A stretch of DNA of 32,849 nucleotides from Desulfurococcales archaeon. Lineage in GTDB: Archaea; Thermoproteota; Thermoprotei_A; Sulfolobales; NBVN01. The stretch spans positions 1-32,849 of the forward strand of contig JAGGUC010000067.1 in assembly GCA_021158735.1 (NCBI GenBank), given 5' to 3'. This document shows positions 7,152 through 32,849 of the stretch, piece by piece (the first letter of the stretch is position 1; the number at the start of each line of letters is the position of its first letter). The notes beneath the pieces were generated by a model. It was not told the origin of the DNA. It made no database searches and saw only the letters and a list, made by a program, of their open reading frames with translations. A program made the translations under genes and the position numbers.

Positions 7152-7258
7152 TGTTATATCACCCATGAGTTAATAGTGTATTTGAATTCAGCTATGAATT
7201 CGTATTTGCTACCATGTTATATCAATTATATCACAGTTACGTAGCTTCTGTTATATCA
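7152..7258. promoter_or_regulatory. Candidate integrase arm-type sites, TGTTATATCA family (right inner end)
   Basis: TGTTATATCA at 7152-7161, 7215-7224 and 7249-7258 (abutting the core), plus AATTATATCA at 7224-7233. Confidence 0.55.
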
Positions 7259-7300
7259 CTGGAGCCCCGTGGTCCGGGGTTCAAATCCCCGCGGCCCCAC
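7259..7300 (+). repeat. att-like core, copy 2: same tRNA 3' half
   Basis: 42-bp exact match to 1077-1118; no tRNA 5' half upstream. Confidence 0.85.
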
Positions 7301-7351
7301 TAAATAAACTAATACAAGTTCTGACATGATTCTACTCGGTGGCAGTCACCT

Positions 7352-21544: not shown

Positions 21545-22855
21545 CTATTTGGGTCTCACATGCCCCCATTTTCTCAGTGCTTCAGACAGCTCCTTATGTG
21601 TCTTAGCGTACTCCTCAAGCGGTGTGTTACTTAGGTAAGCCTCAATAGCCTGTCTGACTGCCATGCCCCCAGCTCTTGTCCCCCATGGATGCCCGGTAAC
21701 GCCTCCTCCCACCTGAATCAGTATGTCTACACCCATAAAGTCAAGTACTTGATGTAGGATTCCTGGGTGAAGCCCGCCTGAAGCTACGGGTAATACGGGC
21801 TTTAGTCCATACCATTTCTGCGTTTCTTTAATTGACTTAGCTTCTGGTTTGAATTCCTCTCTGGTCATAACATTCACGGTTTCCCGCAATTCTGCCATGT
21901 CGGCCTCCATCTTACCTACATTAGTGCCTACATGAATGTGGTCAACACCAGCTAATCTAGCTATCTTAGCTATTAAGTAAAACGAAACACCATGTTCCTT
22001 ACTTCTAGTGAATGCTGCATGGAATGCTCTGTGAGCATGGATAGCTAGTTTTAAGTCTTCGGCCTCCTCTCTCACAGTCTGAAGTGCTGCCCAGCCAGCA
22101 CATAAGATGTCGATCATGATGAAGTTATTGCCGTGATCAGCTACGGCCTTCATACGTCTAAGCATCTCACGTGTCTCAGCAGTTATGTTTACTAAGTAGC
22201 CTTTTCTCTCACCAGTTTCTTTTTCAGCTTTTTCTAGTGCCTTGACTACAGCGGCTAGTCTTTTCTCGAACTTATTGAAGCTTTGACTAGTCAGGTTTTC
22301 ATCATCTTTAATTAGGTCTACCCCTCCAGTAGCTATTTCGTACGCTACTTGAGCGTATTCTTCTGTTGTGAGTCCTACTTTAGGCTTAGGGACGGTAGCT
22401 AGTATGGGTCTGCCATGTACCTTCAGAATATCCCTGACACCCTTCACACCGAACTGCGGCCCTAGGAAGGACTTGACGTACTTTTCAGGGAACTTGATGT
22501 CAATAACTCTCAGTGCTTTGATAGCTCTCATGCCGAAGATATTGCCTAGGAGTGAGCTGAATAGCTGGGGTATGGAACCAAGCTCAAAGAGGTCTAACGG
22601 GTAAGCTACCTTAATTAGCCCGTCCTCACTCATGTAGTATACCTTCGCCATTAAATTCTTTATGTGGTCTTTGAGAGTAGTTAGTGTTGTCCAGGTGCCT
22701 ACACTGCTTTCTGAAGCAACCCTACCTGCAGCATCTGCTAAGCTGACACCTGGAGCTGGCCTTACCTTAAATACGGCGATTACATCGTGGGTTCCCGGAG
22801 TATATGATAAGTCGATGAAGTCTCTATACCATTCGAAATCTTGGTCTTCACTCAA
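21545..22855 (-). CDS. rbcL: RuBisCO large chain, archaeal (form III-like)
   Basis: GGVDLIKDDENLTSQSFNKFEKR, PVASGGLHPGILHQVLDFMGVDILIQVGGGVTGHPWGTRAGGMAVRQAIEA. Confidence 0.95.
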   Translation of the reverse strand: MSEDQDFEWYRDFIDLSYTPGTHDVIAVFKVRPAPGVSLADAAGRVASESSVGTWTTLTTLKDHIKNLMAKVYYMSEDGLIKVAYPLDLFELGSIPQLFSSLLGNIFGMRAIKALRVIDIKFPEKYVKSFLGPQFGVKGVRDILKVHGRPILATVPKPKVGLTTEEYAQVAYEIATGGVDLIKDDENLTSQSFNKFEKRLAAVVKALEKAEKETGERKGYLVNITAETREMLRRMKAVADHGNNFIMIDILCAGWAALQTVREEAEDLKLAIHAHRAFHAAFTRSKEHGVSFYLIAKIARLAGVDHIHVGTNVGKMEADMAELRETVNVMTREEFKPEAKSIKETQKWYGLKPVLPVASGGLHPGILHQVLDFMGVDILIQVGGGVTGHPWGTRAGGMAVRQAIEAYLSNTPLEEYAKTHKELSEALRKWGHVRPK

Positions 22856-24779: not shown

Positions 24780-24855
24780 GCCGCCGTAGCTCAGCCGGTA
24801 GAGCGCCGGCCTCGTAAGCCGGTGGTCGCGGGTTCAAATCCCGCCGGCGGCTCCA
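24780..24855 (+). tRNA. tRNA-Thr (anticodon CGT), CCA encoded
   Basis: GCCGCCG TA GCTC AGCCGGTA GAGC G CCGGC CTCGTAA GCCGG TGGTC GCGGG TTCAAAT CCCGC CGGCGGC T CCA folds as a complete 76-nt cloverleaf. Confidence 0.97.
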
Positions 24856-24928: not shown

Positions 24929-26212
24929 GTGTTCGAACTCGGTTCTGATGTTGAGTGGTATGAGAGGGTTAGGGTTGAAGCTTTAGGTGACGATGTTAGG
25001 CTTAGTATTTTAAGGGCTGTTAAGAATAAGCTTGGATTTAATGGGGCTTGTAGTGCTTTAGGTATTGCTAAGTCAAGCCTCCATAGGTATCTTTCAGGTA
25101 AGCGTAAGATACCTAGTGATGTTGTTAAGAAGGCGCTTAGACACCTTGAGAGGGAGGAGTTTGAATCCATTGTTAGTGAATGGGATAAACTCAGGGCTCT
25201 AGGTGTTATAAGCGATAAGGGAGTTGTAGATTATGGTCTTGCACTTAAGATACTGGGGCTAGCATCTAAAGACGAGTACTTAAAGAATGCTATCTTGAAA
25301 TTTGTCGTCCAAGAATTTAGAGACGATCTTAGGAAAATGCTTGGAATAAGTTTTGTAGGAATTAAGCTGGAGTGGAGTGAGAATTTCGAATACTTCCTCA
25401 TGGAGCGTAAGAAACGTAGGAAAGTAAAAGACCCAGAAACACTAAAATACTATAAAAGCCTATTCGAAAAGTACTTGCAGGGTAAGGAGCTTTCAGAGAA
25501 GCTAATAGACTATGTAGTTAACCATCCAAATAGGTGGCTTAGAAACGTGTTTAGACACTACATACAGTACCTATACTTTAAGAGGAAAATATCACCTGAA
25601 ACATTTGGTTGGATTATGGAGGTTGTTCCTAGCAGGAGCTACAAGCTAGATGTGAGGCCATACCAGATATCTCTAGAAGACTTGAGGAAAACATTAGCAT
25701 TCCTTAAAGAGAAACACCAGCTATACTACACGATCTACAAAGCCATGCTTGAGTCAGGTGCTAGGTTCGAACATGTACTTAGGATGTTTGAAAAATGGAA
25801 TCCTAGCGAAGTAATTGAAATCCCAGGGTTAAACATTATTACCAAGAGGCTTGTATGTTTCGAGGATAGAGGTTTCTGCAGATACTACATGGGCTTAAGG
25901 GGTTCTGAGAAACCATGTGAGTGGGTGTACTTCAGCGCAGACACACTCAAACTACTACGGGAATTCGCTTCTAAACACGTCAACAGACACCAGGTCAGTA
26001 AGTACGCTAAGAGGCACAACCTGATACTGCCCAAATACATGAGGAAGGCTTCGTGGAGGCTTATGGTGAAGGCCGTGCCTAGGGAAGTAGCTAGGTTCAT
26101 CCAGTCTAGGTTCGGGGAGCTTAGAGTTAGTGAGGCGAGGTACGAGGACTTACTTGGTGAGGCTGATGAGGAGTATCCCAAATATCTAGGGATGGTTAGG
26201 GAGTACCTGTAA
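24929..26212 (+). CDS. Archaeal tyrosine recombinase / integrase with N-terminal HTH
   Basis: 427 aa starting 74 bp after the tRNA-Thr 3' end. Candidate catalytic residues: Arg in LESGARFEHVLRM, KYMRKASWRLM, Tyr in EARYEDL. Confidence 0.8.
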   Translation: MFELGSDVEWYERVRVEALGDDVRLSILRAVKNKLGFNGACSALGIAKSSLHRYLSGKRKIPSDVVKKALRHLEREEFESIVSEWDKLRALGVISDKGVVDYGLALKILGLASKDEYLKNAILKFVVQEFRDDLRKMLGISFVGIKLEWSENFEYFLMERKKRRKVKDPETLKYYKSLFEKYLQGKELSEKLIDYVVNHPNRWLRNVFRHYIQYLYFKRKISPETFGWIMEVVPSRSYKLDVRPYQISLEDLRKTLAFLKEKHQLYYTIYKAMLESGARFEHVLRMFEKWNPSEVIEIPGLNIITKRLVCFEDRGFCRYYMGLRGSEKPCEWVYFSADTLKLLREFASKHVNRHQVSKYAKRHNLILPKYMRKASWRLMVKAVPREVARFIQSRFGELRVSEARYEDLLGEADEEYPKYLGMVREYL

Positions 26213-26681: not shown

Positions 26682-27593
26682 ATGCAGCTATGTTATCTTG
26701 AGGTGTTAAGTGTGAGTGGACCTAAGCTTAGGGCCTTAGTTATAGGGTTAATAGCCTCACTCCTGCTATGCCTTAGTATGTTAGGTACTCCCATGTTAAC
26801 AGCCGCTTCATCCTCTATAGAGACTAATAAGGATGTGTATAGGGTAGGGGACGTTATGACTATTACTGTTAGAGATCCTAATGCAAACGTTAATAGATTC
26901 TTTGCTGATACAATTGAGGTTATAGTTAAGTCAACAAGCGATCTCGGAGGGATTAAGGTAGTATTAACTGAGACTGGGGCCGATACTGGAGTGTTTAAAG
27001 GTAGTGTGCTCTTGTCGGGTGCATTAGCAGTAGGACTTAATACATTATACGTTAAGCCTGGGGATGAAATAACGATAGTTTATGGTGGCATCACACATAA
27101 GGTACGGGTAGCATCTCATGAGGCTGTGATTGTAACCACAACTGCGACTACAGCACCTACTAAAACTGCGCCTCCTAAGACTATAAGTAGAACCGAGGCT
27201 TTAGTGCCTAGCGAAATTACGAATGTTACTATCACCACCAACGTCACTATACCGGTAGCTCCACCGGTAAAAGTAGTTAACGAGTCCCTTGAAGAACTAA
27301 TCTTAATGCTTAAGGAGCTTAAGGAGGATCTAAAGACCCTTAAAGATTCTAAGATGGCTCTAGTGAGGATTCAAGCAGTTGCTTCAATAATAGCTGAGAA
27401 GGCGTATGAGGAGGCTAAAGCCGGTAATTTAGAGGATGCTAAAGAACTAGCCTTAACTGCTCTAAACATGACACGTGGAGTTATAAAAGCTTATGATGAA
27501 AAAGCTGAGGTAGTTAAGAAGTATTCAGAATCATTTGAAAACATATGTGAAGCACTAGCAGAGCTCATTAGAGCATACACAGGGTCAAGCTAA
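26682..27593 (+). CDS. Secreted Ig-like/S-layer-type protein with helical C-terminus
   Basis: Signal-like hydrophobic N-terminus, SSIETNKDVYRVGDVMTITVRDPNAN, Thr/Pro linker, long charged helix. Confidence 0.7.
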   Translation: MQLCYLEVLSVSGPKLRALVIGLIASLLLCLSMLGTPMLTAASSSIETNKDVYRVGDVMTITVRDPNANVNRFFADTIEVIVKSTSDLGGIKVVLTETGADTGVFKGSVLLSGALAVGLNTLYVKPGDEITIVYGGITHKVRVASHEAVIVTTTATTAPTKTAPPKTISRTEALVPSEITNVTITTNVTIPVAPPVKVVNESLEELILMLKELKEDLKTLKDSKMALVRIQAVASIIAEKAYEEAKAGNLEDAKELALTALNMTRGVIKAYDEKAEVVKKYSESFENICEALAELIRAYTGSS

Positions 27594-27812: not shown

Positions 27813-28649
27813 TTAGCTTTCGGTGTGCTCGATTCCTGCTAGAAGATATATTAGAGCGTACCATCTGCCTACATTGTCGCTCCACAGCTTATCATCGCAG
27901 TAGTATGTTCTGTGGAATGGTGAGCCTCGAGGGCTGTCCTTAAATGTATTCATTACATGATCTTTTTCCATCAATAGGTACGTGTATATTCTCTCCATGC
28001 CACGGCACTTAAAACAGTACTTTATGAAACGTTCCGATAGTGGAGTCTGCATTAGAGCAAGAAATTCTAATCCTTCATTATCTATTGTTGTAAATGCCTT
28101 ACCGCACTTAAGACATGAAACTTTAATGAGCCTATTCTTTGCCCATTCGATATGCTTCGAAGCTTCGGGCTTCACATCCGATACTAACTCCTCCCATTCC
28201 TCCTCTATCAGCCTCTTTATCTCGCCGCACCAATATAGCACGATCTGAGCGAGCTCCCCTAAGCTATCCCTTCTCTTGCTGTAGTCCTCAGCTACACCGT
28301 TTACGAGCTTTATAGCTAAACCTCTAGCTCTGCTAGGATTAAGCATTACCGAAGGTGAGTGAAGGAGGGTTGAGGCATAATCAAGTACATGATGTAGGAG
28401 AAAAGCTCCTACACACTGCTTCCTAAATTCCTCACAATAACCACCGCATACCTCGTTGTAATATCTACTTAGCTCCTCATGTAGGTAATAAAATACCCAT
28501 GTCCCATCTATTATTACCCTACCGTAATCATGAAGCTCAGGATGCCCTATACTATCAATTTCCCTATTAATCTCATCAGCAATTCTGTCATCAATTCCTA
28601 GACGACGAGCCCACTTATTATGGATAGCCCAACTAGGCATAACCTTCAC
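27813..28649 (-). CDS. Hypothetical protein with His-rich helical N-terminus and Cys pairs
   Basis: 278 aa; MPSWAIHNKWARRLGI, HHVLDYASTLLH, CLKCGK..CFKC. Confidence 0.65.
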   Translation of the reverse strand: MKVMPSWAIHNKWARRLGIDDRIADEINREIDSIGHPELHDYGRVIIDGTWVFYYLHEELSRYYNEVCGGYCEEFRKQCVGAFLLHHVLDYASTLLHSPSVMLNPSRARGLAIKLVNGVAEDYSKRRDSLGELAQIVLYWCGEIKRLIEEEWEELVSDVKPEASKHIEWAKNRLIKVSCLKCGKAFTTIDNEGLEFLALMQTPLSERFIKYCFKCRGMERIYTYLLMEKDHVMNTFKDSPRGSPFHRTYYCDDKLWSDNVGRWYALIYLLAGIEHTES

Positions 28650-30587: not shown

Positions 30588-32384
30588 TTACGATATCCAT
30601 TCTATAATCCGTTCTCCATTTCTTGTTTTTCTTACTTTACGTACTTGTACTAGGTATTCTATAACTCCCTTAATATCTTCCTCCCTATACTCTTCATCTC
30701 TAACTTCTTTTCCTAACTTCTTCACTTCCTCAATTAATTCTCTTTCACGTATTCTCTTTCTTTCGCGTATGGTTGTTTCAACATCGTCTAGAAGAGAGTT
30801 ATATGATATTGATGGTATACCTAGTAGTAGAGCATATGTTCTAAGCTCTTTATCGTTTGTGAAGAGCACAGCATTCCTCCTTAAAGCTTCTAGAAGAACC
30901 GCGGTATCCACTAAGTCTCCACTTGCCATCTTTGCTATTTCAGAAGCCCCTCGGAGAGCCTGAGCTATAACCGCAGCTTGAGACACGGACTTAGAGGTTG
31001 GCTCCTCCAACACTTTTAATCTAATGTATCCTGCTCCGCTTATTTCATAAAGCCTAGTCAACGATCTTATTATGTTGTTCATTTCTTTTTTAATACTAAA
31101 CTTTCTCTTCAATTCATAGATAACTGGAGTAGGGATAATAATTTCCCTACCTGACATGAAGGTTTTGAAGAATGAGCCTCGAGGATTATAGGGGTAAGTT
31201 AGTGTAGTGATTATATTTGTATCCATTACTATGGGCTTTTTCCTATCGAATAGGGGATTTGTGAAAAGCTCGATTTCCACTTCCGTACTAAGATCTATTT
31301 CCGGAAAAACTTCATAGCTAATTACCTGGCCATAAGGGGTGGGTTCAACGAAGGGCTTCACCATTTCATCATATACTTCAAATTCCTTTACTTTAGCAGG
31401 GGATGTAAAGGGTAGGAGAACATCACCATAAAGGTAGATGCTCTTGTATTCGAGCGTTTCATATACTTTCCTCCTAACCCAGTTTATTGTACCTTCCTCA
31501 CCACCTTGAATTAATTGGCTAACTATTTTCGAAGGATTATATACCTTTAGCTTAACCTTTTTAGCCTTTTTAACCCAGTCATTATCAGCTCTCAACGGAA
31601 CCATAGTTATTGGGAGAAGGCTGGGCTTAAGCTCTTTATTGCTAAGCTTGAAAATGCTAGAAATAACCCAGAACGCCATGAATGGGTTGGCTGTTAAAGC
31701 ACGCAGAGGATTAGGGTGATAAGCGAAAGAGCCTACGTCTATGCCTGATATTAGGAAGGATTCTTCGATAGGAAAGTCTATGGATGAGAAGAAGGAACCT
31801 ACACCAACCACTACATCAGCTTCCTTTAAAGCATGCTTAATCAGGTCTTTCACTTCGCTAGTAGCTCCATCCACAATCTTCATTAATTCTTCTTTAGCGC
31901 TCTTCATCTTGGGATCGGTCATGGCCAGTATGGTCGTAGGTTCTATGTTCTTCTCTGTTCTAAGGTACATAGTAAAGTCTATAAACTTCTCCTCAACTAA
32001 TGAGTAGACTTTCTTAAACACTTTATATTCCTTAGAGTTCTCTCTTAGCTTATCGAAAGCTGGTATTTTTAAGATGTAATCGTATTGATGAGGTTTCCAA
32101 CCTACTTTCTCAGTAAAACCAAATTCTGTTAGGAAATAGTAGTGCTGATTTGCAATATGGTCGAAAACACTTAGCAACATACGTGCCTCTTTATCAGGGT
32201 CTATTTCCTTAAATTCTCTAACTTTTTCAATAGTAGTACGGCTTCTAAAAGAAGGTCTATTAAGTTCAAAACCCACTTGATCACCAAACTCAACCTTCAA
32301 TTCGTTCTTTACATTATCCTTGATGAAGATTCCATGTTCAAACCATAAGCTTACCCAAGCTCTATAAGACTTCATGTTTTTCAT
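30588..32384 (-). CDS. 598-aa protein: unassigned N-terminal region plus C-terminal PIN nuclease domain
   Basis: PIN acidic residues in order: PIVMDTNIITTL, TPVIYELKRKF, GDLVDTAVLLEAL, LFTNDKELRTYALLLGIP. About 380 aa upstream match nothing I recognise. Confidence 0.85.
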   Translation of the reverse strand: MKNMKSYRAWVSLWFEHGIFIKDNVKNELKVEFGDQVGFELNRPSFRSRTTIEKVREFKEIDPDKEARMLLSVFDHIANQHYYFLTEFGFTEKVGWKPHQYDYILKIPAFDKLRENSKEYKVFKKVYSLVEEKFIDFTMYLRTEKNIEPTTILAMTDPKMKSAKEELMKIVDGATSEVKDLIKHALKEADVVVGVGSFFSSIDFPIEESFLISGIDVGSFAYHPNPLRALTANPFMAFWVISSIFKLSNKELKPSLLPITMVPLRADNDWVKKAKKVKLKVYNPSKIVSQLIQGGEEGTINWVRRKVYETLEYKSIYLYGDVLLPFTSPAKVKEFEVYDEMVKPFVEPTPYGQVISYEVFPEIDLSTEVEIELFTNPLFDRKKPIVMDTNIITTLTYPYNPRGSFFKTFMSGREIIIPTPVIYELKRKFSIKKEMNNIIRSLTRLYEISGAGYIRLKVLEEPTSKSVSQAAVIAQALRGASEIAKMASGDLVDTAVLLEALRRNAVLFTNDKELRTYALLLGIPSISYNSLLDDVETTIRERKRIRERELIEEVKKLGKEVRDEEYREEDIKGVIEYLVQVRKVRKTRNGERIIEWIS

Positions 32385-32567: not shown

Positions 32568-32849
32568 GTGGCTAGTAGTAAGGGGGAAACGTATCATCAG
32601 AGGTGGAGGCGTGAGCACCCTAGGCTTCAGATATATCTTTCTAAAGAAGAGTATGAGTGGCTTAGGAAGAGAGCTGATGCTAAAGGGGTATCGATGAAGG
32701 ACATTGTTCTAGAGGCTATTAAGCGTGAAAGGGATGTGGAGCTTGAAAAGAATTTGGAGTTTCTTAGGGGGTTTTATAGAGCATTAGATCTGTTTATTGA
32801 TGATCCATGGGAATTCTATGTGAGGGTTATTGATAGAGCTAGGAGTAGG
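32568..32849 (+). CDS. Ribbon-helix-helix-like protein, truncated by window end
   Basis: GTG at 32568: VASSKGETYHQRWRREHPRLQIYLSKEEYEWLRKRADAKGVSMKDIVLEAIKRERDVELEKNLEFLRGFYRALDLFIDDPWEFYVRVIDRARSR, open to the end. Confidence 0.65.
   Translation, partial: MASSKGETYHQRWRREHPRLQIYLSKEEYEWLRKRADAKGVSMKDIVLEAIKRERDVELEKNLEFLRGFYRALDLFIDDPWEFYVRVIDRARSR

Follow-up and report, generated by a model that had tools for sequence, protein, structure and literature searches.

A rare PIN-domain fusion protein, conserved over its full length, in an integrase neighbourhood of a Desulfurococcales archaeon

The window analyzed here is an entire contig of 32,849 nucleotides from a Desulfurococcales archaeon. 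It carries a tRNA-Thr(CGT) gene (24780..24855, forward strand), the probable integration target, followed by a gene for an archaeal phage-type integrase (24929..26212, forward strand; PF16795, E 5.5e-22), in agreement with the original prediction that the region bears an integrase. Downstream of both lies the gene of interest, which encodes a 598 aa fusion protein containing a PIN domain (30588..32384, reverse strand). Next to it, at a distance of 183 bp and in divergent orientation, is an ORF with weak similarity to ribbon-helix-helix proteins (32568..32849, forward strand; sub-threshold matches to RHH_1, ORF56 and RelB) that is cut by the end of the contig; on this side, the contig end limits the original remark that the gene sits alone. 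In a congener, a degraded copy of the integrase occupies the same place, at the same tRNA and adjoining the same Mrp-like gene. Three genomes from another genus of the family possess the tRNA-Thr(CGT) gene together with the same two neighbors, and in the approximately 9 kb beyond this tRNA neither the integrase of the window nor the PIN gene nor the intervening genes are found. Given that the same tRNA and neighbors occur in related genomes without these genes, the arrangement fits an insertion at tRNA-Thr, with rearrangement as the alternative. Downstream, the tRNA end does not recur within the contig, which ends before the far end of the putative element.

Several other features of the contig were recorded. 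The integrase-linked region includes a gene for a predicted secreted-type protein (26682-27593, forward strand) with weak similarity to an S-layer glycoprotein (E 3e-12, far below the family cut-off), and a 278 aa protein (27813-28649, reverse strand) with two CxxC pairs and several histidines has no family match but a weak match on a Thermococcus plasmid (E 0.2). Elsewhere, the window encodes a RuBisCO large subunit with both domains (21545-22855, reverse strand; E 5e-93 and 2e-41) and contains a direct repeat of 90 nt, 83% identical between its copies (1037-1126 and 7219-7308, forward strand), whose end resembles the 3' portion of a tRNA gene (T-arm, acceptor strand and CCA or CTA). No 5' tRNA half was detectable near the repeat and no tRNA was called there; the copies may be what is left of the att sites of a 6.2 kb element, or else the 3' halves of tRNA genes that are split or contain introns.

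The 598 aa ORF is a single frame in the window that starts with ATG; its start region is the sole plausible one, and the open frame comprises 602 codons. When the region was resampled 500 times with a Markov model, the longest run free of stop codons had 183 codons, which excludes a chance origin. Furthermore, residues 4-593 are conserved at the protein level in a different class of the same phylum, which identifies the ORF as a gene. Its GC content (38%, and 36% at the third codon position) is below that of most neighboring genes.

A sample of 400 genomes from the same phylum contains, besides the window itself, exactly one full-length relative, which comes from genome G287, an archaeon placed in a different class (E 2.4e-59, with 32% identity across residues 4-593); the next-best matches are either short PIN-only proteins or chance similarities. 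The relative is encoded on a 4.4 kb contig, and its gene also has a low GC content (35%). Altogether, the full-length gene is present in 1 of the 231 genomes of the window's class, namely its own, and in 1 of the 81 genomes of the relative's class. It was not detected among 201 sampled genomes of a third class, where an empty answer is weak, or in any of the 11 members of the family with a completeness of 90% or more; several of the surveyed genomes, including the window's own (77%), are incomplete. Phage and plasmid collections yielded nothing significant for this protein, exact-peptide-pattern scans of GTDB contigs, which by their method are weak evidence, gave no hits, and the viral structure library produced no match at E <= 0.001. 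Comparison of the PDB sequences with the whole protein, its profile, the PIN and winged-helix part, and the N-terminus gave chance-level scores only. The sporadic distribution speaks for horizontal spread rather than a housekeeping role, and the gene is probably a horizontally acquired, non-housekeeping one. In particular, a crenarchaeal housekeeping family with universal synteny, the finding that would have refuted the original prediction, is not borne out by these counts.

The PIN domain occupies residues 382-529 (30798..31241, reverse strand), as indicated by profile matches, alignments and structure comparison. The Pfam profile PIN_4 matches residues 385-528 with E 1.5e-6 and 29 bits, above the curated cut-off of 21.9 bits, which the relative also exceeds (23.2 bits), and PHROG 2765, which corresponds to the PIN region of a PhoH-like family, is the best PHROG match (E 1.9e-9). 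An alignment of ten PIN sequences, those of the fusion protein and its relative together with eight further PIN proteins from archaea, shows that the acidic catalytic set is intact, as had been claimed: the catalytic-type aspartate D388 (codon 31221..31223), E424 (31113..31115), D493 (30906..30908) and D511 (30852..30854; all on the reverse strand) are invariant. Alignment also reveals an additional stretch, at approximately residues 450-490, relative to short single-domain PIN proteins. With the eight PIN sequences added, AlphaFold modeled the core blocks of the domain with fair to good confidence, mostly at pLDDT 58-84, except for residues 451-490, and in a Foldseek search the model matches AF0591 (TM 0.65) and other PIN structures. 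The domain is the part most clearly aligned with the relative (z 41 against shuffled sequences), and its isoelectric point is 9.8 in both proteins. Because its acidic set is intact and its PIN domain, like that of the relative, is basic, the fusion protein is likely to cut RNA; the gene product would be a soluble, probably metal-dependent ribonuclease of the PIN family.

The matches of the PIN domain bear directly on the possibility that the protein is a lineage-restricted nuclease of RNA processing or decay, similar to PhoH2 or HARP, with an N-terminus that binds substrate RNA and with no role in conflict. This reading draws on the PhoH-like PHROG, on weak matches to PRK04358, which we take to be a HARP-related family, and on HARP PIN structures among the top Foldseek matches. 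The PRK04358 scores, however, are 14.3 and 18.1 bits against a cut-off of 260, the HARP superpositions mostly have an rmsd of 12-18 A, and Pfam detects no ATPase family in the protein. Moreover, the gene is missing from nearly all relatives, which would not be expected of an RNA-maturation enzyme. We consider this explanation unlikely, and the sporadic distribution also makes improbable the "novel RNA-processing nuclease" that had been proposed for this gene, in the housekeeping sense of the term.

VapC toxins are characterized by PIN domains, and an ORF with sub-threshold similarity to RHH_1 and RelB is close at hand, so the protein might be the toxin of an element-borne toxin-antitoxin pair, the antitoxin being either this ORF or the protein's own N-terminal half. 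We regard this scenario as rather improbable: the ORF is divergent and truncated instead of being co-directional and overlapping, the relative has no recognizable ribbon-helix-helix neighbor on its 4.4 kb contig, and the protein is about four times as long as VapC.

The remainder of the protein is no less a part of its conserved architecture. The approximately 380 residues that precede the PIN domain were originally described as unassigned, and residues 1-381 indeed have no matches in Pfam, NCBIfam, PADLOC or the PDB sequences and only chance-level scores against PHROGs. Residues 1-187 (31824..32384, reverse strand) are predicted, from a low-confidence model, to be mostly alpha-helical, and residues 188-381 (31242..31823, reverse strand) to be mixed alpha/beta, likewise from low-confidence secondary structure. 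Both align with the relative, at 30-31% identity (30% for residues 1-187), with z values of 16 and 27, respectively, against shuffled sequences, so this front half is a conserved part of the protein rather than junk. The conserved motifs of the second segment are AD..(V/I)G.G(S/T).FS and LT.NP. With two sequences, AlphaFold reached an overall pLDDT of 39 and did not fold residues 1-381, and most of residues 1-360 stayed below 50 even when the eight PIN sequences were added; the quality of the N-terminal model does not permit interpretation, and the Foldseek output pertains to the PIN and winged-helix parts only. The N-terminal half may represent a new fold.

Three readings of this half were considered and rejected. 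The glycine-rich hydrophobic stretch is not a transmembrane segment (the best 19-residue Kyte-Doolittle mean is 1.28). The likeness of ADVVVGVGS to an apparent precorrin methyltransferase was judged coincidental, its score being around the chance expectation among 400 genomes, and weak N-terminal matches to a GatB/E-like protein, an ABC ATPase and a secreted protein are attributable to chance.

The PIN domain was originally placed at the C-terminus of the protein; it does lie in the latter part, at residues 385-528, but a winged-helix domain that had been missed extends beyond it, over residues 530-598 (30591..30797, reverse strand). AlphaFold models these residues confidently as a winged helix, with pLDDT of about 70-93. 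The best Foldseek matches of this tail are cullin WHB, F93 of an archaeal virus and Z-alpha winged helices, at E 0.002 and weaker, and none reaches E <= 0.001. The tail aligns with that of the relative at z 7, and its degree of conservation is similar to that of the two N-terminal segments. Conservation of the front half and the tail between the two proteins points to one fixed architecture; the 598 aa protein is a rare, full-length-conserved, accessory PIN fusion.

The combination of a PIN domain, a winged helix and a predicted alpha/beta segment at residues 188-381 raises the possibility of an ancillary effector of type III CRISPR, in which a very divergent CARF-like ligand-binding domain in this segment would drive the PIN domain. 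Two CARF families are linked to PIN domains, and a winged helix is a frequent component of CARF proteins (PMC4012209). In most described CARF proteins, however, the winged helix directly follows the CARF domain and the effector comes last (PMC4012209), whereas in the fusion protein the winged helix forms the C-terminal end. The protein matches none of the CARF or SAVED models of Pfam, NCBIfam and PADLOC, the structural model of residues 188-381 being of low confidence, and annotation of part of the window identified no cas gene. This reading appears very improbable. Another reading is that the protein is a mobile, previously undescribed archaeal sensor-effector of immunity in a single polypeptide, with an N-terminal sensor of new fold that would control the PIN ribonuclease and a winged helix that would attach the protein to nucleic acid. 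This reading is doubtful, albeit conceivable.

The surroundings of the relative provide a modest, second-hand hint at defense. It is flanked by two ORFs without Pfam matches in which motifs resembling PD-(D/E)xK nucleases (ECK in one, PD...DAK in the other) were read by eye. The family of one of these ORFs is itself sporadic (10 of 300 genomes). In genome G178, one member of this family is found on a stretch with defense genes of the TmtA-like and DUF1156-type methyltransferase kinds, and another adjoins the same kind of methyltransferase; outside this genome, most members sit among ordinary genes. Proteins related to this neighbor form a sporadic family of approximately 380 aa (loci L071-L081 in G163, G135, G191, G096, G180, G103, G178 and others), which starts with a conserved GGTRGS.Y.Y-like motif, apparently ends in a PD-(D/E)xK domain and is solitary in most genomes.

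Taken together, distribution and context suggest N-terminal sensing or targeting and a role in conflict. The explanation that we favor, to which we would give an even chance, is that the protein is a ribonuclease of a mobile island that has its own part for binding nucleic acid, and probably parts for sensing or targeting, and that most likely serves in conflicts with viruses or plasmids. In its favor are the PIN match with its invariant acidic residues, the basic PIN domain, the winged helix, the conservation along the whole length, the sporadic distribution, the integrase neighborhood at tRNA-Thr, the surroundings of the relative and the low GC content of both genes. Under this scenario, the gene would be an accessory one, acquired together with the integrase-bearing element at tRNA-Thr. 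The N-terminal 380 or so residues, helical and then alpha/beta, and the winged helix would recognize a target or trigger and would direct or restrain the basic PIN domain; the outcome would be cleavage of RNA on infection, or the protein might act as a toxin-like effector borne by the element. Against this explanation stand the lack of a match to PADLOC models (at E up to 1), the single relative on its short contig, which is too little for statistics on neighborhoods, the reading of the PD-(D/E)xK motifs by eye, the ordinary neighbors of that family elsewhere, and the absence from the contig of both the far end of the element and a repeated tRNA end. Putative, too, is the "sensor-effector defence protein" of the original prediction, given the lack of a PADLOC match, the poor model of residues 1-381 and the single relative, whose neighbors resemble PD-(D/E)xK nucleases by eye.

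Archaeal defense outside CRISPR-Cas and restriction is poorly catalogued. In Thermoproteota, the prevalence of defense systems is reported to be generally lower, with the exception of restriction, CRISPR-Cas and argonautes (2026 survey, PMC12988326). A rare PIN fusion conserved over its full length and located in apparently acquired DNA is the type of gene that surveys of defense systems miss.

Comparison with known PIN-containing systems places the protein as follows. With VapC of the VapBC systems it shares a PIN domain with four conserved acidic residues; VapC, however, is a short single-domain protein with an upstream, co-directional and co-transcribed antitoxin, whereas the fusion protein has 598 aa, extra domains on both sides of the PIN domain and a divergent neighbor. 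PhoH2 consists of a PIN_4 domain fused to a PhoH RNA helicase, with the PIN domain N-terminal and the ATPase following it (PMC7390352). Its PIN domain is the closest one by PHROG, and both appear to be multidomain PIN ribonucleases, but in the fusion protein the PIN domain is C-terminal and is followed by a winged helix in place of the ATPase. HARP, a protein-only RNase P, is a nuclease whose PIN domain contains additional residues (PMC8266387), a feature that the fusion protein shares along with the weak profile and Foldseek signals; the HARP chains in the PDB are approximately 155-205 aa long and lack a comparable N-terminal half. CARF-PIN effectors have in common with it the winged helix, the PIN domain and possibly a sensor-like N-terminus, and differ in domain order. 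PDC-S70 is a candidate defense protein with a PIN nuclease domain, found mostly in archaea (PMC12988326), so that both are archaeal PIN-bearing candidates for a role in conflict; no model in PADLOC-DB, which may not hold PDC-S70, matches the fusion protein. Finally, PIN proteins of the AF0591/Fcf1 type are the most similar single-domain sequences in the phylum, and the fold match to AF0591 is fair, but, unlike the fusion protein, they comprise approximately 150 aa and no additional domains. We regard the protein as a new architecture inside the known PIN superfamily.
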